Of a stretch of 46,104 nucleotides of DNA, positions 4,706 through 37,492 are shown piece by piece. The DNA is from Prauserella aidingensis. Lineage in GTDB: Bacteria; Actinomycetota; Actinomycetes; Mycobacteriales; Pseudonocardiaceae. A program made the position numbers and the translations under genes. The notes beneath the pieces were generated by a model. That model had not been told where the DNA came from, made no database searches, and was given only the letters and a program-made list of their open reading frames with translations. The stretch spans positions 1-46,104 of the forward strand of contig NZ_JAMTCN010000034.1 in assembly GCF_024171865.1 (NCBI RefSeq), in the 5' to 3' direction. Position 1 is the stretch's first letter, and every line of letters begins with the position of its first letter.

Positions 4706-4831
4706 GGTGACGGGCGGGCGCAACACGGTCCCCGGGATCCGCAACACGGGCCCCTGGGAACGCAACACGGTCCCCGGAACCTGCAACACGAGCCCCCAGG
4801 GACGCAACACGCGCCCCTGGATCCGCAACAC
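4706..4831 (-). repeat. 21-bp tandem repeat array 1 (six units) after mscS
   Basis: On the minus strand the octamer GTGTTGCG (once GTGTTGCA) recurs six times in exact 21-bp register, with cores (plus coordinates) starting at 4719, 4740, 4761, 4782, 4803 and 4824. The 13 bases after each core are semi-conserved, roughly NNNCCNGGGGNCC, and often nearly palindromic. The first core begins 24 bases after the mscS stop codon. The same family occurs at 17040-17165 and 36171-36275. Spacers differ between units, but there is no longer invariant repeat as in CRISPR. Confidence 0.9.
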
Positions 4832-4855: not shown

Positions 4856-5791
4856 TCAGCCGGACTGGGAAGCGCCGGCGTTCGCCAACGGCAGGATCGG
4901 GTAGGCGACGCGGACGCCCGCGGCGTCGAGGCCGGCCTTCAGGTGGGCCCGCAGGTCGCGGCCGATCGACCACTGGTCGCCGGGCTGGGTCATGACCATG
5001 ACCCGCACCGTGACGGCACCGTTGCCGATGCCGACCACACCGCTGATGTCCGGCCGCTCGATGATCTTCGGCGCGAACTCCGGGTTGTCGGCGAATTCGT
5101 CGATGCTGCGCTGGATGACGGCCTTCGCCTCGTCGAGGTTCACCGAGTAGTCCAGCGGCAGCTCCACGACCGCGTTGGCCCAGTCCTGGTTCATGTTGCA
5201 GACACGCATGATCTCGCCGTTGCGCACGTGCCACAACCCGCCGTTGAGGTCGCGGATCTTCGTCACCCGCAGCGTGACCGCCTCGACCGTGCCGACCGCG
5301 TCGCCCACGTCGACGACGTCACCCACGCCGTACTGGTCCTCGACCATCATGAAGATGCCGGACAGGAAGTCCTGCACCAGGCTCTGCGCACCGAAACCGA
5401 TCGCAAGGCCGATCACACCGGCGCTCGCGATGATCGGGCCGATGTTGATTCCGAACTGGCCGAGGATCGTCACGAACGCGATGCCGAAGATCACGAACGA
5501 GGCAACGCTCTTGAGCACCGAAGCGATCGTGCCCGCCCGCTGGCGCTGCCGTTCGCCACGACTCTCGTTGTTCTGCTTGATGACCCGGCTCGCCGCCTTG
5601 GCCTTCGCCTTGTCGATCCGCTCGCGCGAGTTGACCATCCGCTTGGCCAGCTGGTCGATGACCCGGCCGACGATCGCACGCAGCACCAGCGCGAGCACCA
5701 CGATGATCGCGATGTTGATCAGACCGGACACCATCTCCGTGGAGTTCTCATTGAACCAGTCCACGAACGCATTGGCCTGGACACGAGGCAT
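4856..5791 (-). CDS. mscS: Small-conductance mechanosensitive channel, MscS family
   Basis: Protein of 311 residues. A first membrane helix (about 20-42, INIAIIVVLALVLRAIVGRV) is followed by a basic linker, a second helix near 88-110, and the MscS pore helix region ASAGVIGLAIGFGAQSLVQ, then SGIFMMVEDQYGVGDVV leading into the beta domain with TVEAVTLRVTKIRDLNG. These are the hallmark residues of the family, which opens on membrane tension to release solutes during osmotic downshock. The ATG at 5791 is preferred over 5842 because of GAGGGGAG upstream and because the extra N-terminal residues are Pro-rich. It is transcribed alone; its 3' end is followed at once by repeat array 1. Confidence 0.88.
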   Translation of the reverse strand: MPRVQANAFVDWFNENSTEMVSGLINIAIIVVLALVLRAIVGRVIDQLAKRMVNSRERIDKAKAKAASRVIKQNNESRGERQRQRAGTIASVLKSVASFVIFGIAFVTILGQFGINIGPIIASAGVIGLAIGFGAQSLVQDFLSGIFMMVEDQYGVGDVVDVGDAVGTVEAVTLRVTKIRDLNGGLWHVRNGEIMRVCNMNQDWANAVVELPLDYSVNLDEAKAVIQRSIDEFADNPEFAPKIIERPDISGVVGIGNGAVTVRVMVMTQPGDQWSIGRDLRAHLKAGLDAAGVRVAYPILPLANAGASQSG

Positions 5792-6125
5792 GGGCGCGGG
5801 TCTCCCCTCTTCCGCTGGCAGCGGACACGTACTCGGCGTCACCGGGCAGGGTAGGCAGCCACCCGCACGCCGCCCGCACGCGGGGCGCCATCGACCTGAC
5901 GAAGTGCTCCTTGACCAGCACGTCGAAGACGCCTCGCCGGCCCGTTGACGTCAGTGAGCGGCCGACTTCACCGGTACCTCACGGGCCCAGGCCACCAGCC
6001 TCAGCACCGCAGCCCGGTCGCGGGGTGCATGCTGTCCACGTCAGGGCTCCTGCCGCCCACGTCAGGGCGCAACCCGCGCGCCTCAGCACGCAGTCGGGCC
6101 GCCTCGACACCGCAGGCCACCGATC
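5792..6125. other. Gene-free interval holding degenerate 21-bp repeats
   Basis: These 334 bases lie between the mscS start and the TetR stop codon. The TetR-proximal half holds a second type of 21-bp repeats (see 6023-6106). The mscS-proximal part should contain the mscS promoter, but I see no convincing -35/-10 pair. No protein-like open frame is present. Confidence 0.55.
6023..6106 (-). repeat. 21-bp degenerate repeat array with a TGACGTGG core, after the TetR gene
   Basis: On the minus strand, units of 21 bases start with TGACGTGG at 6064 and 6043, TGAGGCGC at 6085 and CGAGGCGG at 6106; the TetR stop region itself (TGAGATCGG at 6128) fits the register to within one base. The 12-base string CCACGTCAGGGC (plus strand) is identical at 6036-6047 and 6057-6068. 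The 8 + 13 organisation and position after a stop codon match the GTGTTGCG arrays, but the core is different. Weaker copies may extend to about 5950. Confidence 0.65.
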
Positions 6126-15740: not shown

Positions 15741-16958
15741 GTGCGCGGTGGACGACTCGGACAGCGACGATGGTCGGTGCCGCTGGTCCTGGCGGTCAGC
15801 GGCCTGCTCGTGCTGTCCGGGTGCGCCGACTTCGAGGACGAGGCCTCCGGCGAACGGTGGTCGGCGGCCCCGGAGCTGTCCCCGGAGCGCGGACCGCAGC
15901 CGCAGCTGCCGGAGGCCCAGACACCGGACGTGCCGAGCGCTCCCCAACAGCAGCCCACGAAGGTCCCGCCACCGGAAGGCTGCAAGGACTTCGACCAAGC
16001 CGTGATCGCGACCTGCCTGGACACCGTGTCGGCGGTGACTCCGCTCCCCGGTGGCGGCCAGGTGATCAGCGCACTCGCGGGTGAGCGGCGTAGCGGGCGG
16101 GTGATGCTCGTCGACAGCAACGGCACGGAGGAGCGGTTCGCGAAGCTGGACGTCGCCGCGACCGGGGACGGCGGGCTGACGAGCCTCGCACTGTCGCCGA
16201 CGTACGCGGAGGACCGCCTCGTCTACGCCTACGTCACGACGCCGGAGGACAACCGGGTCGTGCGGTTCGCGCGCGGTCAGAAGCCCAAGCCCGTGCTCAC
16301 CGGCATCCCGAAGGGGCCGAACGGCAACGCGGGCGCGCTGTTGGCCACCGTGGACGGGTCGTTGCTCGTCGCCACGGGCAACGCAGGCGACGCGGGGAAG
16401 GCCGGCCGTCCGGGCACCCTGTCCGGCAAGGTGCTGCGGATCGACCCGTCCGGCGAGCCCGCGGCCGACAATCCGACGAACGGTTCCCCCGTCCTGGCGT
16501 CCGGCCTGACCGTGCCGGGCGGGCTGTGCCAGACGCCCGACGGCTCGCGCACGTGGGTGACCGACCGCGGTGCCGACAAGGACGCGCTGTTCGCCGTGCC
16601 CGACGGCGCGGACTCCGACGGGGTGGCCGAGCTGGGCTCGCCCGCGTGGACGTGGCCGGACAAGCCGGGCGTGACCGGCTGCGCCGATTGGACGGACTCG
16701 GTCGCCGTGGCGACCTCACGCGGCGAGAACGTGCAGAACCTGCCCCTCACCCAGGACGGCTCCGTCGGCGGAGAACCGCAGGTCACGATGGACGGCGACA
16801 ACGGGCCGAGTTACGGCAGGCTGGGCTCGCTGTCGCAGGTGTCGGAGAACGTGTCCGTCGCGGGCACCGTCAACAAGGACGGCGGCAAGCCTGGGTCGAG
16901 CGACGACCGGGTGGTGCTGATCGTGCGGCAGCCGTCGGGCGGTTCCGGCCGCGACTGA
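15741..16958 (+). CDS. LppZ-like lipoprotein with sugar-dehydrogenase-type beta propeller
   Basis: Protein of 405 residues. The signal peptide ends in the lipobox LVLSGC near residues 23-28, so it is exported and lipid-anchored at the cell membrane. After a Pro-rich spacer the rest is a six-bladed propeller of the soluble PQQ glucose/sorbosone dehydrogenase type (VSAVTPLPGGGQVISALAG, GGLTSLALSPTYAEDRLVYA, GTLSGKVLRIDPSG). No PQQ-binding ligand set is evident, so enzymatic activity is doubtful. Mycobacterial LppZ occupies the same place near gatB, which supports orthology. Start is GTG 15741; a TACTCT box ends 8 bases before it, compatible with a leaderless transcript. Confidence 0.75.
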   Translation: MRGGRLGQRRWSVPLVLAVSGLLVLSGCADFEDEASGERWSAAPELSPERGPQPQLPEAQTPDVPSAPQQQPTKVPPPEGCKDFDQAVIATCLDTVSAVTPLPGGGQVISALAGERRSGRVMLVDSNGTEERFAKLDVAATGDGGLTSLALSPTYAEDRLVYAYVTTPEDNRVVRFARGQKPKPVLTGIPKGPNGNAGALLATVDGSLLVATGNAGDAGKAGRPGTLSGKVLRIDPSGEPAADNPTNGSPVLASGLTVPGGLCQTPDGSRTWVTDRGADKDALFAVPDGADSDGVAELGSPAWTWPDKPGVTGCADWTDSVAVATSRGENVQNLPLTQDGSVGGEPQVTMDGDNGPSYGRLGSLSQVSENVSVAGTVNKDGGKPGSSDDRVVLIVRQPSGGSGRD

Positions 16959-17039: not shown

Positions 17040-17165
17040 GGCCCCTCGGAACCGCAACACGGTCCCCTGGACACGCAACACGGTCCCCGCAGACCGCAAC
17101 ACGAGCCCCGGAACCTGCAACACGGCCTCCCGGGCCTGCAACACGGTCTCCCGGAAACGCAACAC
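17040..17165 (-). repeat. 21-bp tandem repeat array 2 (six units)
   Basis: Six GTGTTGCG/GTGTTGCA cores on the minus strand at plus coordinates 17053, 17074, 17095, 17116, 17137 and 17158, in exact 21-bp register, each followed by 13 semi-variable bases such as TTTCCGGGAGACC. The array lies between the convergent lppZ-like and membrane protein genes; in the sense direction of the minus-strand gene its first core starts 62 bases after the stop codon. No open reading frame of its own seems likely. Confidence 0.9.
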
Positions 17166-17180
17166 GGGTGCTGTTGTCGT

Positions 17181-17237
17181 GGGCGGGTGTCAGCGGGTTG
17201 GGCGGGTGTCAGCGGGTTGGGCGGGTGTCAGCGGGTT
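17181..17237. repeat. 19-bp tandem repeat, three copies
   Basis: The unit GGGCGGGTGTCAGCGGGTT occurs three times in a row without mismatch (17181, 17200, 17219) and a partial fourth follows. The stop codon of the membrane protein gene (17228-17230) lies in the third copy, so expansion happened at the 3' end of the gene. Each copy carries the same TGA on the minus strand, so copy number does not change the protein end. Confidence 0.9.
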
Positions 17238-17749
17238 GGGCGGTTGCGGCGGTCGGGACGTCTGCGGCGGGTTTCGGTGTGGAGCGCTCGGGTGTCGAGT
17301 GCCGCGAGGACGGCGGTCGCGACCACGGCGATCCCGCCGAGGTACCGGCCGACGCCGGCGTCGACGGTCACGCCGCCCGCTTCGAGGACGGCGCGTTCCT
17401 CGCTGCCGAACTGCCAGTCGGCGAACAGCCAGCCGAGCACGGTGAACAGCAGCGCCAGGCCTGCGCCGATGAGCCACAGCTGGGGCAGGCCGCCCGTGCG
17501 CGCGGCGTTGTTCCTGCCGATCGCGGCCACGGTGACGCCGACGGCTGCGACGAGCAGGGGCGGGAACCAGCCGAAGAAGGTCGCCCGCCACACCGACCGG
17601 GTGACATCATCGGCGGGCAGTTCGGCGAGCGCCGACCGCACCGCGGGGTCGTCGGAGGACAGCACGGTCCACGGCAGGAACAGGGAGACGACGGCGAGCA
17701 CCGCGGCCGCGAGCCCGCCGACCTCCCGCCACGACGGCCGAGCAGTCAC
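17228..17749 (-). CDS. Small integral membrane protein of unknown function
   Basis: About 173 residues with four predicted membrane helices: VGGLAAAVLAVVSLFLPW, FFGWFPPLLVAAVGVTVAAI, LWLIGAGLALLFTVLGWLFA and YLGGIAVVATAVLAALDT, then a basic tail RRRRPDRRNRPTR. The GTG at 17749 is chosen because AAGG lies 7 bases upstream; an ATG at 17794 would add 15 residues. I do not recognise a named family. The 3' end runs into the 19-bp tandem repeat and then repeat array 2. Confidence 0.65.
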   Translation of the reverse strand: MTARPSWREVGGLAAAVLAVVSLFLPWTVLSSDDPAVRSALAELPADDVTRSVWRATFFGWFPPLLVAAVGVTVAAIGRNNAARTGGLPQLWLIGAGLALLFTVLGWLFADWQFGSEERAVLEAGGVTVDAGVGRYLGGIAVVATAVLAALDTRALHTETRRRRPDRRNRPTR

Positions 17750-17808
17750 GAATACACCTTCCAGCTCACTGCCACCTCCTGCCGTTCCGGCCACCGCACC
17801 CCATCACC

Positions 17809-22399: not shown

Positions 22400-23251
22400 G
22401 TGTCCGTTTCACCCCGCCCCGACCCGTCCCGTCCCGACGACGCCGAGGGAACCGATGGCGTCGACGGCACCAGGGACGTCGACGGCACCGGGGACGTCGA
22501 CGGCACCGGGGACGTCGACGGCACCGGGGACGTCGACGGCACCGGGGCGGCGGCGGAGGCCGCCGAGGACGGGCGGGCCGAGGACGCGTGGGCCGCGGGA
22601 GGACCGGCCGATGAGCCGCAGGTCGCGGAGCGTGCCGAGAGGCAACCGGACGGGGACGGGCAACCCGATCGGGCCGACGAGTTCGAGCGCAAGCTCACCG
22701 TCCCGGTGCTCGTCGCGGCGCTGGCGTCGATCCCGGCGGTGTTCCTGACCCGGGCGGGCGGCGCGGCCGCGGCGATCGGGACGGTGCTGAACTGGGCGTC
22801 GGTGGCGGTGCTGGTCGGCGAGTCGGTGGTGCTGCTGTGGTTGGAGGGCAGCGTGCGGCGGTGGCTGCGCCGCTACCGCTGGCAACTGCTCGTGGTCGCC
22901 GCGGCGGTGCCCGCGGTGGTGTTCGTCATCGGCCCGTTGCAGGTGCTGCGGCTGGTGCTGCTGCTCGGTGGGTTCCACATCCTGCGGGCACGGCGGATCG
23001 TGAACGCAGGCCGCGTGGTGGTCGAGCGGCTCGGACTGGGACAGCGCCGGGCACGGTGGGTACTGGCGGGCGTGATCGCCCTCGCCGGCGTGTTCTCGCT
23101 GATCGTGCTGGCCGATCCGGAGTCCCGCAGCCGCCACGTGGTCGACTGGTTCGTCGAGCGCATCGGCGTGCCGGGCACCGTGCTGGTCGGCCTCGCCGCG
23201 GCGGCGCTCGTCTACGCCGCCGGCCGCCTGCTCACCCGCATCCGCAGCTGA
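22400..23251 (+). CDS. Membrane protein with voltage-sensor-like segment and acidic repeat leader
   Basis: Protein of 283 residues. Residues 1-95 are acidic and low-complexity, containing four repeats of DGTGDV encoded by an 18-bp tandem repeat. From about 98 there are membrane helices: LTVPVLVAALASIPAVFLT, VLNWASVAVLVGESVVLLWL, WQLLVVAAAVPAVVFVI and an Arg-spaced VLRLVLLLGGFHILRARRI, which recall S1-S4 of ion channels. Two more helices follow (WVLAGVIALAGVFSLIVLA, VPGTVLVGLAAAALVYAA), but I see no potassium selectivity filter (TVGYG). It may be a voltage-sensor-only or divergent channel; function unknown. GTG start at 22400. Confidence 0.65.
   Translation: MSVSPRPDPSRPDDAEGTDGVDGTRDVDGTGDVDGTGDVDGTGDVDGTGAAAEAAEDGRAEDAWAAGGPADEPQVAERAERQPDGDGQPDRADEFERKLTVPVLVAALASIPAVFLTRAGGAAAAIGTVLNWASVAVLVGESVVLLWLEGSVRRWLRRYRWQLLVVAAAVPAVVFVIGPLQVLRLVLLLGGFHILRARRIVNAGRVVVERLGLGQRRARWVLAGVIALAGVFSLIVLADPESRSRHVVDWFVERIGVPGTVLVGLAAAALVYAAGRLLTRIRS
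22463..22548 (+). repeat. 18-bp in-frame tandem repeat in the membrane protein leader
   Basis: GACGGCACCGGGGACGTC repeats at 22463 (one mismatch), 22481, 22499 and 22517, with a partial copy at 22535. It keeps the frame and encodes the acidic DGTGDV motif. Near-identity at DNA level points to recent slippage, so copy number may vary between strains. Confidence 0.92.
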
Positions 23252-36170: not shown

Positions 36171-36275
36171 TCACTCCGGAATGCGCAACACGAACTCCCG
36201 AGAACGCAACACGACCCCTGGAATCCGCAACACGGACCCCCGAGAACGCAACACGGGCTCCCGAATGCGCAACAC
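36171..36275 (-). repeat. 21-bp tandem repeat array 3 (five units) after the DUF6986 gene
   Basis: GTGTTGCG cores on the minus strand at plus coordinates 36184, 36205, 36226, 36247 and 36268, exactly 21 bases apart, each followed by 13 semi-variable bases (for example TTCTCGGGGGTCC). The first core begins two bases after the stop codon of the DUF6986 gene. Same family as arrays 1 and 2. Confidence 0.9.
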
Positions 36276-36277
36276 AG

Positions 36278-37492
36278 TCAGCCTGCGCGGGCTGCCAGGC
36301 GGGACAGGGCTCGGCGGTCCAGACCACCGGCCAGCTCGCCGGCGAGTTCCGCCTCGTCGACGGCGCCGCAGTCGAGGCCACGCAGCACGTAGGTCGCGAG
36401 CGCCTGGGCGGTGGCGGGTTCGTCGAGGATCGCACCGTCGACGGCGCCCACGTAGGCGTCGAGCCGGTCGACGGCCGACGCGAGGTTCTCGCGGAAGAAC
36501 GCGTACGTCGCGGCGAAGCGACTGGGCAACTGGTGCGGGTGCAGGTCCCAGCCCTGGTAGAAGCCGCGCTCGAGGGACCGGCGCACCAGCCGCAGGTGCT
36601 CGGCCCACCCGTCGGCGACCGCGTCGCCGACGGGCAGCCGGTTGGTCGAGCCGTCGGAGAGCCTCACGCCCCGACCGGCGGCGGCGACCTGCATGAACTG
36701 CTTGGCGAAGTCCGCGGCCGGATGGTCCATGCTCTGGTACGCGCCCGCGATGCCGAGGCCCGCGCTGTAGTCGTAGGTGCCGAAGTGCAGCCCGCTGCAC
36801 CGGCCGTCGGCGGCCTGCACGACGGCGGGCAGCGCGACGGTTCCGTCGGGCCGCAGCACGGACTGCGTGGTTTCGACCTGCACCTCGAAGCGCAGCGTGC
36901 CGACGGCCAGCCCGTGGGCCTTCTCCAACTCGCCCATCACGTCCGCGGCGGCGGCGACCTGCTCGACGTCGGTGACCTTCGGCAGCGTGACGACGAATCC
37001 GGGCGGTGGTCCGCCGAGCGCGTCGAGGAACAGGTCCAGCGTGCGTATCCCTCGGCGCCGGGTGCCCACCTCGAAGCTCTTGAACCGGATACCGCAGAAC
37101 GGCGGGGCGGCCCCGCCGGAGGACAGCTGCGACGCGAGTTCCGCGGCGCACCGCAGCACCTCGGCGTCCTCGACGTCGTCGCCGGGGTTGCCGTAGCCGT
37201 CCTCGAAATCGACGCGCAGGTCCTCGATCGGTTCGGCCGCGAGCTTGGCGCGCACCCGCGAGAGCACGTCGTCGGAGGTGTCGAGGTCGTGCTCGTCCAG
37301 CACGGCGAGGGCGCGGGCGCCCCAGTCCTCGGCGAGGCCGGCGTGGAAGCGGCCGGCGGGGACGTACACCGTGTGGACGGGTTGCCGCCCGGCCGGCTCA
37401 CCGGGATAGGCGGCTGCCACGCGCGCGTCGGACGCGGCGAGTGAGGCGTCGATGCGCGCGTAGACGCCCTCGGTGAGCCGGCCGGCGGTCAT
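36278..37492 (-). CDS. DUF6986 protein, HpcH/citrate-lyase-like aldolase fold
   Basis: Protein of 404 residues. Stretches such as LRVDFEDGYGNPGDDVEDAE, GFVVTLPKVTDVEQVAAAA, VEVQ-like RFEVQVETTQSVL and LHFGTYDYSAGLGIAG resemble the metal- and CoA-ester-binding barrel of the CitE/HpcH family, to which malate synthase is also related. Its ATG directly follows the TAG of the malate synthase gene (TAGATG), so the two are translationally coupled and likely act in the same pathway of glyoxylate or malyl-CoA type chemistry. The reaction is not known. Its stop codon is followed at once by repeat array 3. Confidence 0.78.
   Translation of the reverse strand: MTAGRLTEGVYARIDASLAASDARVAAAYPGEPAGRQPVHTVYVPAGRFHAGLAEDWGARALAVLDEHDLDTSDDVLSRVRAKLAAEPIEDLRVDFEDGYGNPGDDVEDAEVLRCAAELASQLSSGGAAPPFCGIRFKSFEVGTRRRGIRTLDLFLDALGGPPPGFVVTLPKVTDVEQVAAAADVMGELEKAHGLAVGTLRFEVQVETTQSVLRPDGTVALPAVVQAADGRCSGLHFGTYDYSAGLGIAGAYQSMDHPAADFAKQFMQVAAAGRGVRLSDGSTNRLPVGDAVADGWAEHLRLVRRSLERGFYQGWDLHPHQLPSRFAATYAFFRENLASAVDRLDAYVGAVDGAILDEPATAQALATYVLRGLDCGAVDEAELAGELAGGLDRRALSRLAARAG

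Follow-up and report, generated by a model that had tools for sequence, protein, structure and literature searches.

Three arrays of 21-bp units in the window

What are the arrays of short tandem repeats that follow three genes in the 46,104-nucleotide stretch of Prauserella aidingensis DNA analyzed here (hereafter, the window), and what role could they have at these positions? Array 1 (4706..4831) and array 2 (17040..17165) consist of six 21-bp units each, and array 3 (36171..36275) consists of five, all on the minus strand. On the plus strand, the core of the unit reads GCAACAC, and its copies start at positions 4720, 4741, 4762, 4783, 4804 and 4825 in array 1 (six cores spanning 4720-4831), at 17054, 17075, 17096, 17117, 17138 and 17159 in array 2 (six cores, 17054-17165), and at 36185, 36206, 36227, 36248 and 36269 in array 3 (five cores, 36185-36275). 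Every step is 21 bp, so the 17 units with an exact period that an earlier note on this DNA had described at three loci are borne out. The nearly invariant core, which that note put at eight bases, is shorter: the minus-strand 8-mer GTGTTGCG is found in 14 of the 17 units, and the 7-mer GTGTTGC in all 17. The window contains 22 copies of GCAACAC (17 inside the arrays) vs 5.55 expected, and none of 100 dinucleotide shuffles of the window had 22 or more.

Independent gene calls reproduced the minus-strand stop codons 24, 62 and 2 bases from the three arrays. Array 1 is preceded by the gene for an MscS-type mechanosensitive channel (4856..5842, minus strand; our own gene caller places the start at 5791), and array 3 by a DUF6986/aldolase-like gene (36278..37492, minus strand). 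The minus-strand gene preceding array 2 (17228..17794; start at 17701 according to our own gene caller) has no Pfam match and is convergent with a gene containing a glucose/sorbosone dehydrogenase domain (15777-16958). The distance of 62 bases between its stop codon and the array includes 38 bases that belong to two extra copies of a perfect 19-bp repeat (17180..17243, minus strand, 3.4 copies), which duplicates the stop region of this gene and is present in one copy in the related genome G003. A search of the window against Rfam yielded no matches at gathering scores, and a scan for terminators near array 2 found none at the array; the lone T-tailed hairpin, at 17489 on the plus strand, compares with 0.7 expected from shuffles. 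The window also contains an 18-bp repeat (22459-22547, 4.9 copies, 98% matches) within a called plus-strand gene (22400-23251).

Abundance and spread of the arrays

The window's own genome (G000; 5.65 Mb in 80 contigs) contains 471 matches to the two-core pattern and 313 matches to the three-core pattern, which translates into about 158 arrays, one of these being a stray pair on contig C2; the reversed-pattern control gave no matches in this genome. The expectation of hundreds of copies per genome, which had been extrapolated from three arrays in 46 kb, thus stands as far as very large numbers are concerned. On C2 (L153, L319-L321; 477 kb), there is a single stray core pair, whereas arrays abound on C3 (456 kb); in four sampled stretches of C2 (80 kb), the genes are packed tighter, and the only 21-bp repeats are two with two copies each. 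A nine-unit array (L151 12078-12252; C3 456078-456252) reaches to within two bases of the end of C3 (456254 bases), so that counts from draft assemblies may be too low for long arrays.

Six of the seven Prauserella genomes carry GCAACAC pairs (85 to 471 per genome), the exception being G001, which has none. Elsewhere in the family and order, 53 genomes gave 0 to 2 two-core matches each. Among the matches listed, the carriers include Prauserella isguenensis, salsuginis, rugosa, halophila and alba. Triple-core matches outside Prauserella, at least 105 in viral contigs and at least 100 in other genomes, were rejected as members of the same family given that their spacers differ: among the matches listed, none of the non-Prauserella triples had a spacer score above 12 of 14, and 72 of the 82 Prauserella triples scored 14.

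The array design extends beyond this sequence family. Tandem-repeat finding showed that G001 carries its own 21-bp arrays, of the GACACGGCGACG type, that G005 has a second array type beside the first, and that G009, from another genus, has a third. A wider pattern, four RACAC cores at 21-bp steps, has matches in 67 of the 249 Pseudonocardiaceae genomes and at least 50 matches in 21 of them, seven of these being Prauserella and the others belonging to g4, g10, g25, g27 and g54. The reversed RACAC control gave 0 in most genomes, with a maximum of 28 in a genome without forward matches and 20 vs 95 forward in G184. Among 394 genomes of the class, none of the 391 outside the family has more than four matches. 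The remaining 182 of the 249 family genomes have no match, which makes the element dispensable at the family level. The sequence differs between genera, and one sequence family is common to six of the seven Prauserella genomes. With RACAC as the anchor of the alignment, the consensus sequences of the lineages are GCAACACGGGCCCCGGAATCC (G000), CGGACACGGCGTCCGGAGTGC (G009), CCAACACGCCGCCCGGAGCGG (G221), CCGACACGGCGACGCGAGATG (G001) and ACGACACGCGTGATCGGAGGG (g16, nine loci); judging by this alignment, they look like drifted relatives, from which we infer common descent. With regard to a possible macrodomain bias, arrays of at least five units in G009 (contig C1, 5.55 Mb) are distributed over the length of the chromosome, except for two array-free intervals of 0.71 and 0.76 Mb.

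Unit structure and constraint

The period is nearly invariant: 360 of the 365 steps in 103 arrays are 21 bp long, in a tally that admitted steps of 20 and 22 bp only to exact cores. At least four units are present in 79 of 100 arrays, and two or three in the other 21. Conservation of the core was assessed with the pattern GCAACAC-N35-GCAACAC, in which the middle unit is free of selection by the search; 243 of the 256 middle cores were exact, 12 had one mismatch and one had five. In the spacer columns, the major base accounts for 32-95% of the units, with the exception of a single column, six bases after the core, where C is found in 100%. Thus, in this wider set, the fixed part of the unit amounts to the 7-mer and one further invariant base. 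C is also the commonest base at this position in G001, G009 and G221; the g16 lineage has A, rather than C, in 27 of 49 units. In the sense direction, the arrays start sharply at CGTGTTGC, and conservation continues for about 11 bases beyond the last core, so that each copy of the unit appears to be a polar site in its own right, with nothing missing.

The spacers had been described as often near-palindromic. Pairing between spacer bases does not exceed chance at any of the six pair positions (for example, 0.325 vs 0.316), and there is no covariation that would point to an RNA hairpin. A seven-residue protein repeat was rejected as well: in nine genomes, 135 of the 141 arrays lie outside called genes and six overlap them.

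Gene context and polarity

The genomic context was analyzed in these nine genomes, with our own codon-based gene caller retrained for each of them; leaving out the six arrays that overlap genes and five at the ends of stretches, 130 arrays were compared with a background of 1268 gaps of at least 60 bp. Convergent gaps are strongly enriched (60 of 130 arrays vs 229 of 1268 background gaps; p = 5e-12) and divergent gaps are depleted (12 of 130 vs 352 of 1268; p = 9e-7), with 58 of 130 arrays in tandem gaps vs 687 of 1268; these p-values, like those that follow, are optimistic, because related genomes share arrays that were counted as independent and the stretches were partly chosen around arrays. 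The preference for stop-proximal sites, which the earlier note had proposed to check across the genome, is present. A smaller count, made on a set of 105 arrays from the window, from stretches of G000 and from 39 named loci that may overlap, agrees with these results: 50 of 97 arrays were in convergent gaps and 8 of 97 in divergent ones, and tandem arrays were in sense in 26 cases and in antisense in 13. In this smaller set, the median distance is 38 bases to the adjacent stop codon and 214 bases to the adjacent start codon.

The arrays are also polar with respect to the genes. In the nine genomes, the direction in which GTGTY is read tends to match the sense of the nearer gene. Tandem arrays are oriented in sense in 40 cases and in antisense in 18 (p = 0.005); in G001, G009 and G221, which have other repeat sequences, the numbers are 14 sense and 2 antisense. 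The 60 convergent arrays are nearer to their sense stop in 42 cases and to the other stop in 17, with one tie (p = 0.005), the median distances being 24 and 70 bases, respectively. The sense orientation of all three window arrays therefore reflects a bias, not a rule. In G221, there are four sites at which a plus array meets a minus array 9-20 bp further on (L283 10015, L284 14840, L286 3399 and L288 2186; four of five close pairs). Such head-to-head arrays form large inverted repeats, unlike those in Prauserella, so polarity is not uniform.

Conservation and turnover between species

The positions of the arrays are often shared between species. In G003, the orthologues of window arrays 1, 2 and 3 have 5, 4 and 4 units; orthologues of array 2 are also present in G006 and G004, and the corresponding gap in G005, G002 and G001 is short and contains no array. 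In aligned stretches of G000 and G003, there are 22 and 12 arrays, respectively, by the GCAACAC criterion. Unit numbers differ in several orthologous arrays of these two genomes (6/5, 6/4, 5/4, 8/4 and 7/3); they are equal in others (e.g., 4/4, 4/4, 3/3 and 4/4).

Comparison of orthologous gaps showed the same direction in 122 cases, only the opposite direction in 11 and no array in 83, in a tally that counted genome pairs from both sides, covered mapped gaps of up to 6 kb and took one matching array in a gap as sufficient for "same". Thus, direction is usually kept where an orthologous array exists, even between differing repeat sequences, and arrays are missing at many sites in close relatives. 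Of the five mapped gaps (<1 kb) in which G001 has an array of its own type, four are also occupied by an array in some other species, compared to 3 of 35 array-free gaps (p = 0.002) and to none of the five convergent array-free gaps (p = 0.048).

One array of G001 (L207 3702-3800; contig C21) is a mosaic: three GTGTCAGC units are combined with a single GTGTTGGC unit and a single GTGTTGCG unit, the latter of the Prauserella type. This array was possibly caught while one repeat sequence was giving way to another. Another locus, on C3 of G000 (L133 5243-6521; C3 25243-26521), is a two-gene segment flanked by a minus and a plus array, which is inverted in G002 and G001 and agrees with G000 in G003, G005 and G006.

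Proposed phased protein-binding sites and alternative explanations

We see about an even chance that the arrays are phased sites for a cooperative, direction-sensitive DNA-binding protein at gene 3' ends. Each 21-bp unit would be one non-palindromic binding site, made up of the GCAACAC core and the invariant C six bases after it; the middle of the core and this C are 9 bp, or roughly one helix turn, apart. From the period and the constraint, we infer protein binding and its cooperativity: two to nine sites exactly two turns apart would face the same side of the helix, so that the putative protein could bind them cooperatively. With the array a few tens of bases past the stop codon, in most cases in a convergent gap, and tending to point with the nearer gene, the bound protein would form a direction-sensitive boundary that limits read-through or antisense transcription; it might perhaps serve as a nucleoid anchor in addition. 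Phased protein sites fit better than junk or RNA with the 21-bp step, with a polar unit whose fixed bases are about one turn apart, with constraint on the core but not on the spacer, and with the retention of place and direction, in support of the helical-phase argument made at the outset for protein binding. Several observations run counter to this model, namely the 182 family genomes without a match, the g16 lineage without the invariant C, the head-to-head pairs of G221, the many sites at which close relatives lack an array, and the near-absence of arrays from the 477 kb of C2, which exceeds what shorter convergent gaps predict. More tentatively, part of the Pseudonocardiaceae may possess a dedicated direction-sensitive chromosome-boundary system, with a protein on phased 21-bp arrays, in which the recognition sequence drifted between lineages, together with the many arrays of a given genome, the array positions and directions being retained.

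A possible, rather doubtful alternative is that the arrays are selfish or neutral satellites, which originate and expand through slippage or conversion and persist only where insertions do the least harm, past stop codons. The unequal unit numbers in several of the G000/G003 orthologous arrays (others being equal) are compatible with such growth, avoidance of promoters and genes would by itself yield the convergent bias, and convergent gaps of at least 60 bp are less frequent on C2 (0.037 per kb; 80 kb sampled) than on C3 (0.121 per kb; 340 kb). However, neutral slippage would not limit constraint to the core and one base while the spacers drift, and the orientation bias and the reuse of positions by arrays of other sequence argue against this explanation as well.

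It appears unlikely that the array is transcribed in the 3' UTR and acts as RNA, through stability, termination or protein binding, a role that the earlier note considered equally open and that the folding controls do not support. The sense-strand bias directly past stop codons is in line with such a role, and 52-nt satellites of B. coagulans are described as transcribed in the accessible parts of two reports (PMC8161180, PMC8625621). Compared to dinucleotide shuffles, the window arrays seem to fold preferentially in the sense strand (z = -2.55, -1.93 and -2.07, vs -0.81, -0.37 and -1.56 in antisense), but with a repeat-preserving permutation of columns, the mean sense z in four genomes is -0.04 (36 arrays), -0.19 (17), 0.55 (15) and -0.56 (16). 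Under this control, folding is weaker in G001 (nominal p = 0.042) and stronger in G221 (0.038), and the antisense strand is somewhat more stable in two of the four genomes (z = -0.77 and -1.46), so that sense is not consistently special. The spacers without covariation and the 18 antisense cases among the 58 tandem arrays also speak against an RNA element. A C-rich Rho/rut strand was dropped by argument, the composition differing among the lineage consensuses.

It is highly improbable that inverted array pairs are ends of mobile or invertible segments, serving as recombination sites for the intervening DNA, even though neighboring arrays are predominantly in -+ order (17 -+, 6 ++, 3 -- and 0 +- among neighbors <3 kb apart in the 105-array set; 24, 6, 5 and 4 in the nine genomes) and the two-gene segment described above is inverted in two genomes: in four comparable pairs on C3, the intervening DNA is orthologous in G003 (partly so in one), which rules out a mobile cassette with this DNA as its cargo, single arrays are common, inspection by eye revealed no target-site duplication, and sense arrays on convergent genes also produce the -+ order.

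Relationship to known repeats

The phased-site reading can be set against several known systems. REP/BIME elements are palindromic repeats that are dispersed over the genome and occur at gene 3' ends and in convergent gaps; the Prauserella arrays are similarly dispersed and similarly located, but no palindrome is maintained in them. A paper by Subirana and Messeguer (J. Bacteriol., 2020) is reportedly devoted to 20-21-nt bacterial satellites. In the accessible parts of a report by these authors, noncoding bacterial tandem repeats of 20-21 nt, identified as arrays of at least four repeats, are described as constant in size and variable in sequence, with a short constant core, and as occurring in Bacillus and in further groups, among them Actinobacteria; the size is noted to correspond to two helix turns, a protein polymerising on DNA is suggested, and the satellites are called enigmatic (PMC8161180). 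An earlier survey, in the part available, gives 23 satellites for Amycolatopsis mediterranei (PMC6749651). As described in PMC8161180, the 20-21-nt satellites resemble the Prauserella arrays in being noncoding tandem units of constant size with a short constant core and in forming dispersed families in each genome. Their sequence is given as species-specific; the sequence of the arrays studied here differs between genera, but one family is common to six of seven Prauserella genomes. In Beggiatoaceae, the TAACTGA heptamer forms short sets of direct repeats (169 sets in one genome), which, in the accessible part of the source, are mostly placed just upstream of start codons (PMC4679880); the heptamer core and the short direct-repeat sets are like those found here, whereas the Prauserella arrays follow stop codons and are depleted in divergent gaps.

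The view in the earlier note that no description had been published is therefore wrong for the kind, which is described in PMC8161180. For this particular family, a literature search that missed most subscription papers found no paper on the repeat in Prauserella or Pseudonocardiaceae. The 21-bp gene-end arrays are of a previously published kind, the 20-21-nt satellites, among which this family appears to be new. To the accessible account of these satellites, the present analysis adds their location at gene ends, their polarity, the constraint on the core, the conservation of position and the occurrence of RACAC arrays in several genera; the main text of PMC8161180 contains neither the word "orientation" nor "stop codon". 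If a protein binds the arrays, it would be a novel gene-end or chromosome-architecture factor. The question "why 21?" becomes testable, with a defined probe, controls, and carriers as well as non-carriers within one family. For satellites that had been known by little beyond their constant size, there are now measurements of where the arrays are placed, which way they point, which bases are constrained and how far their positions are conserved.
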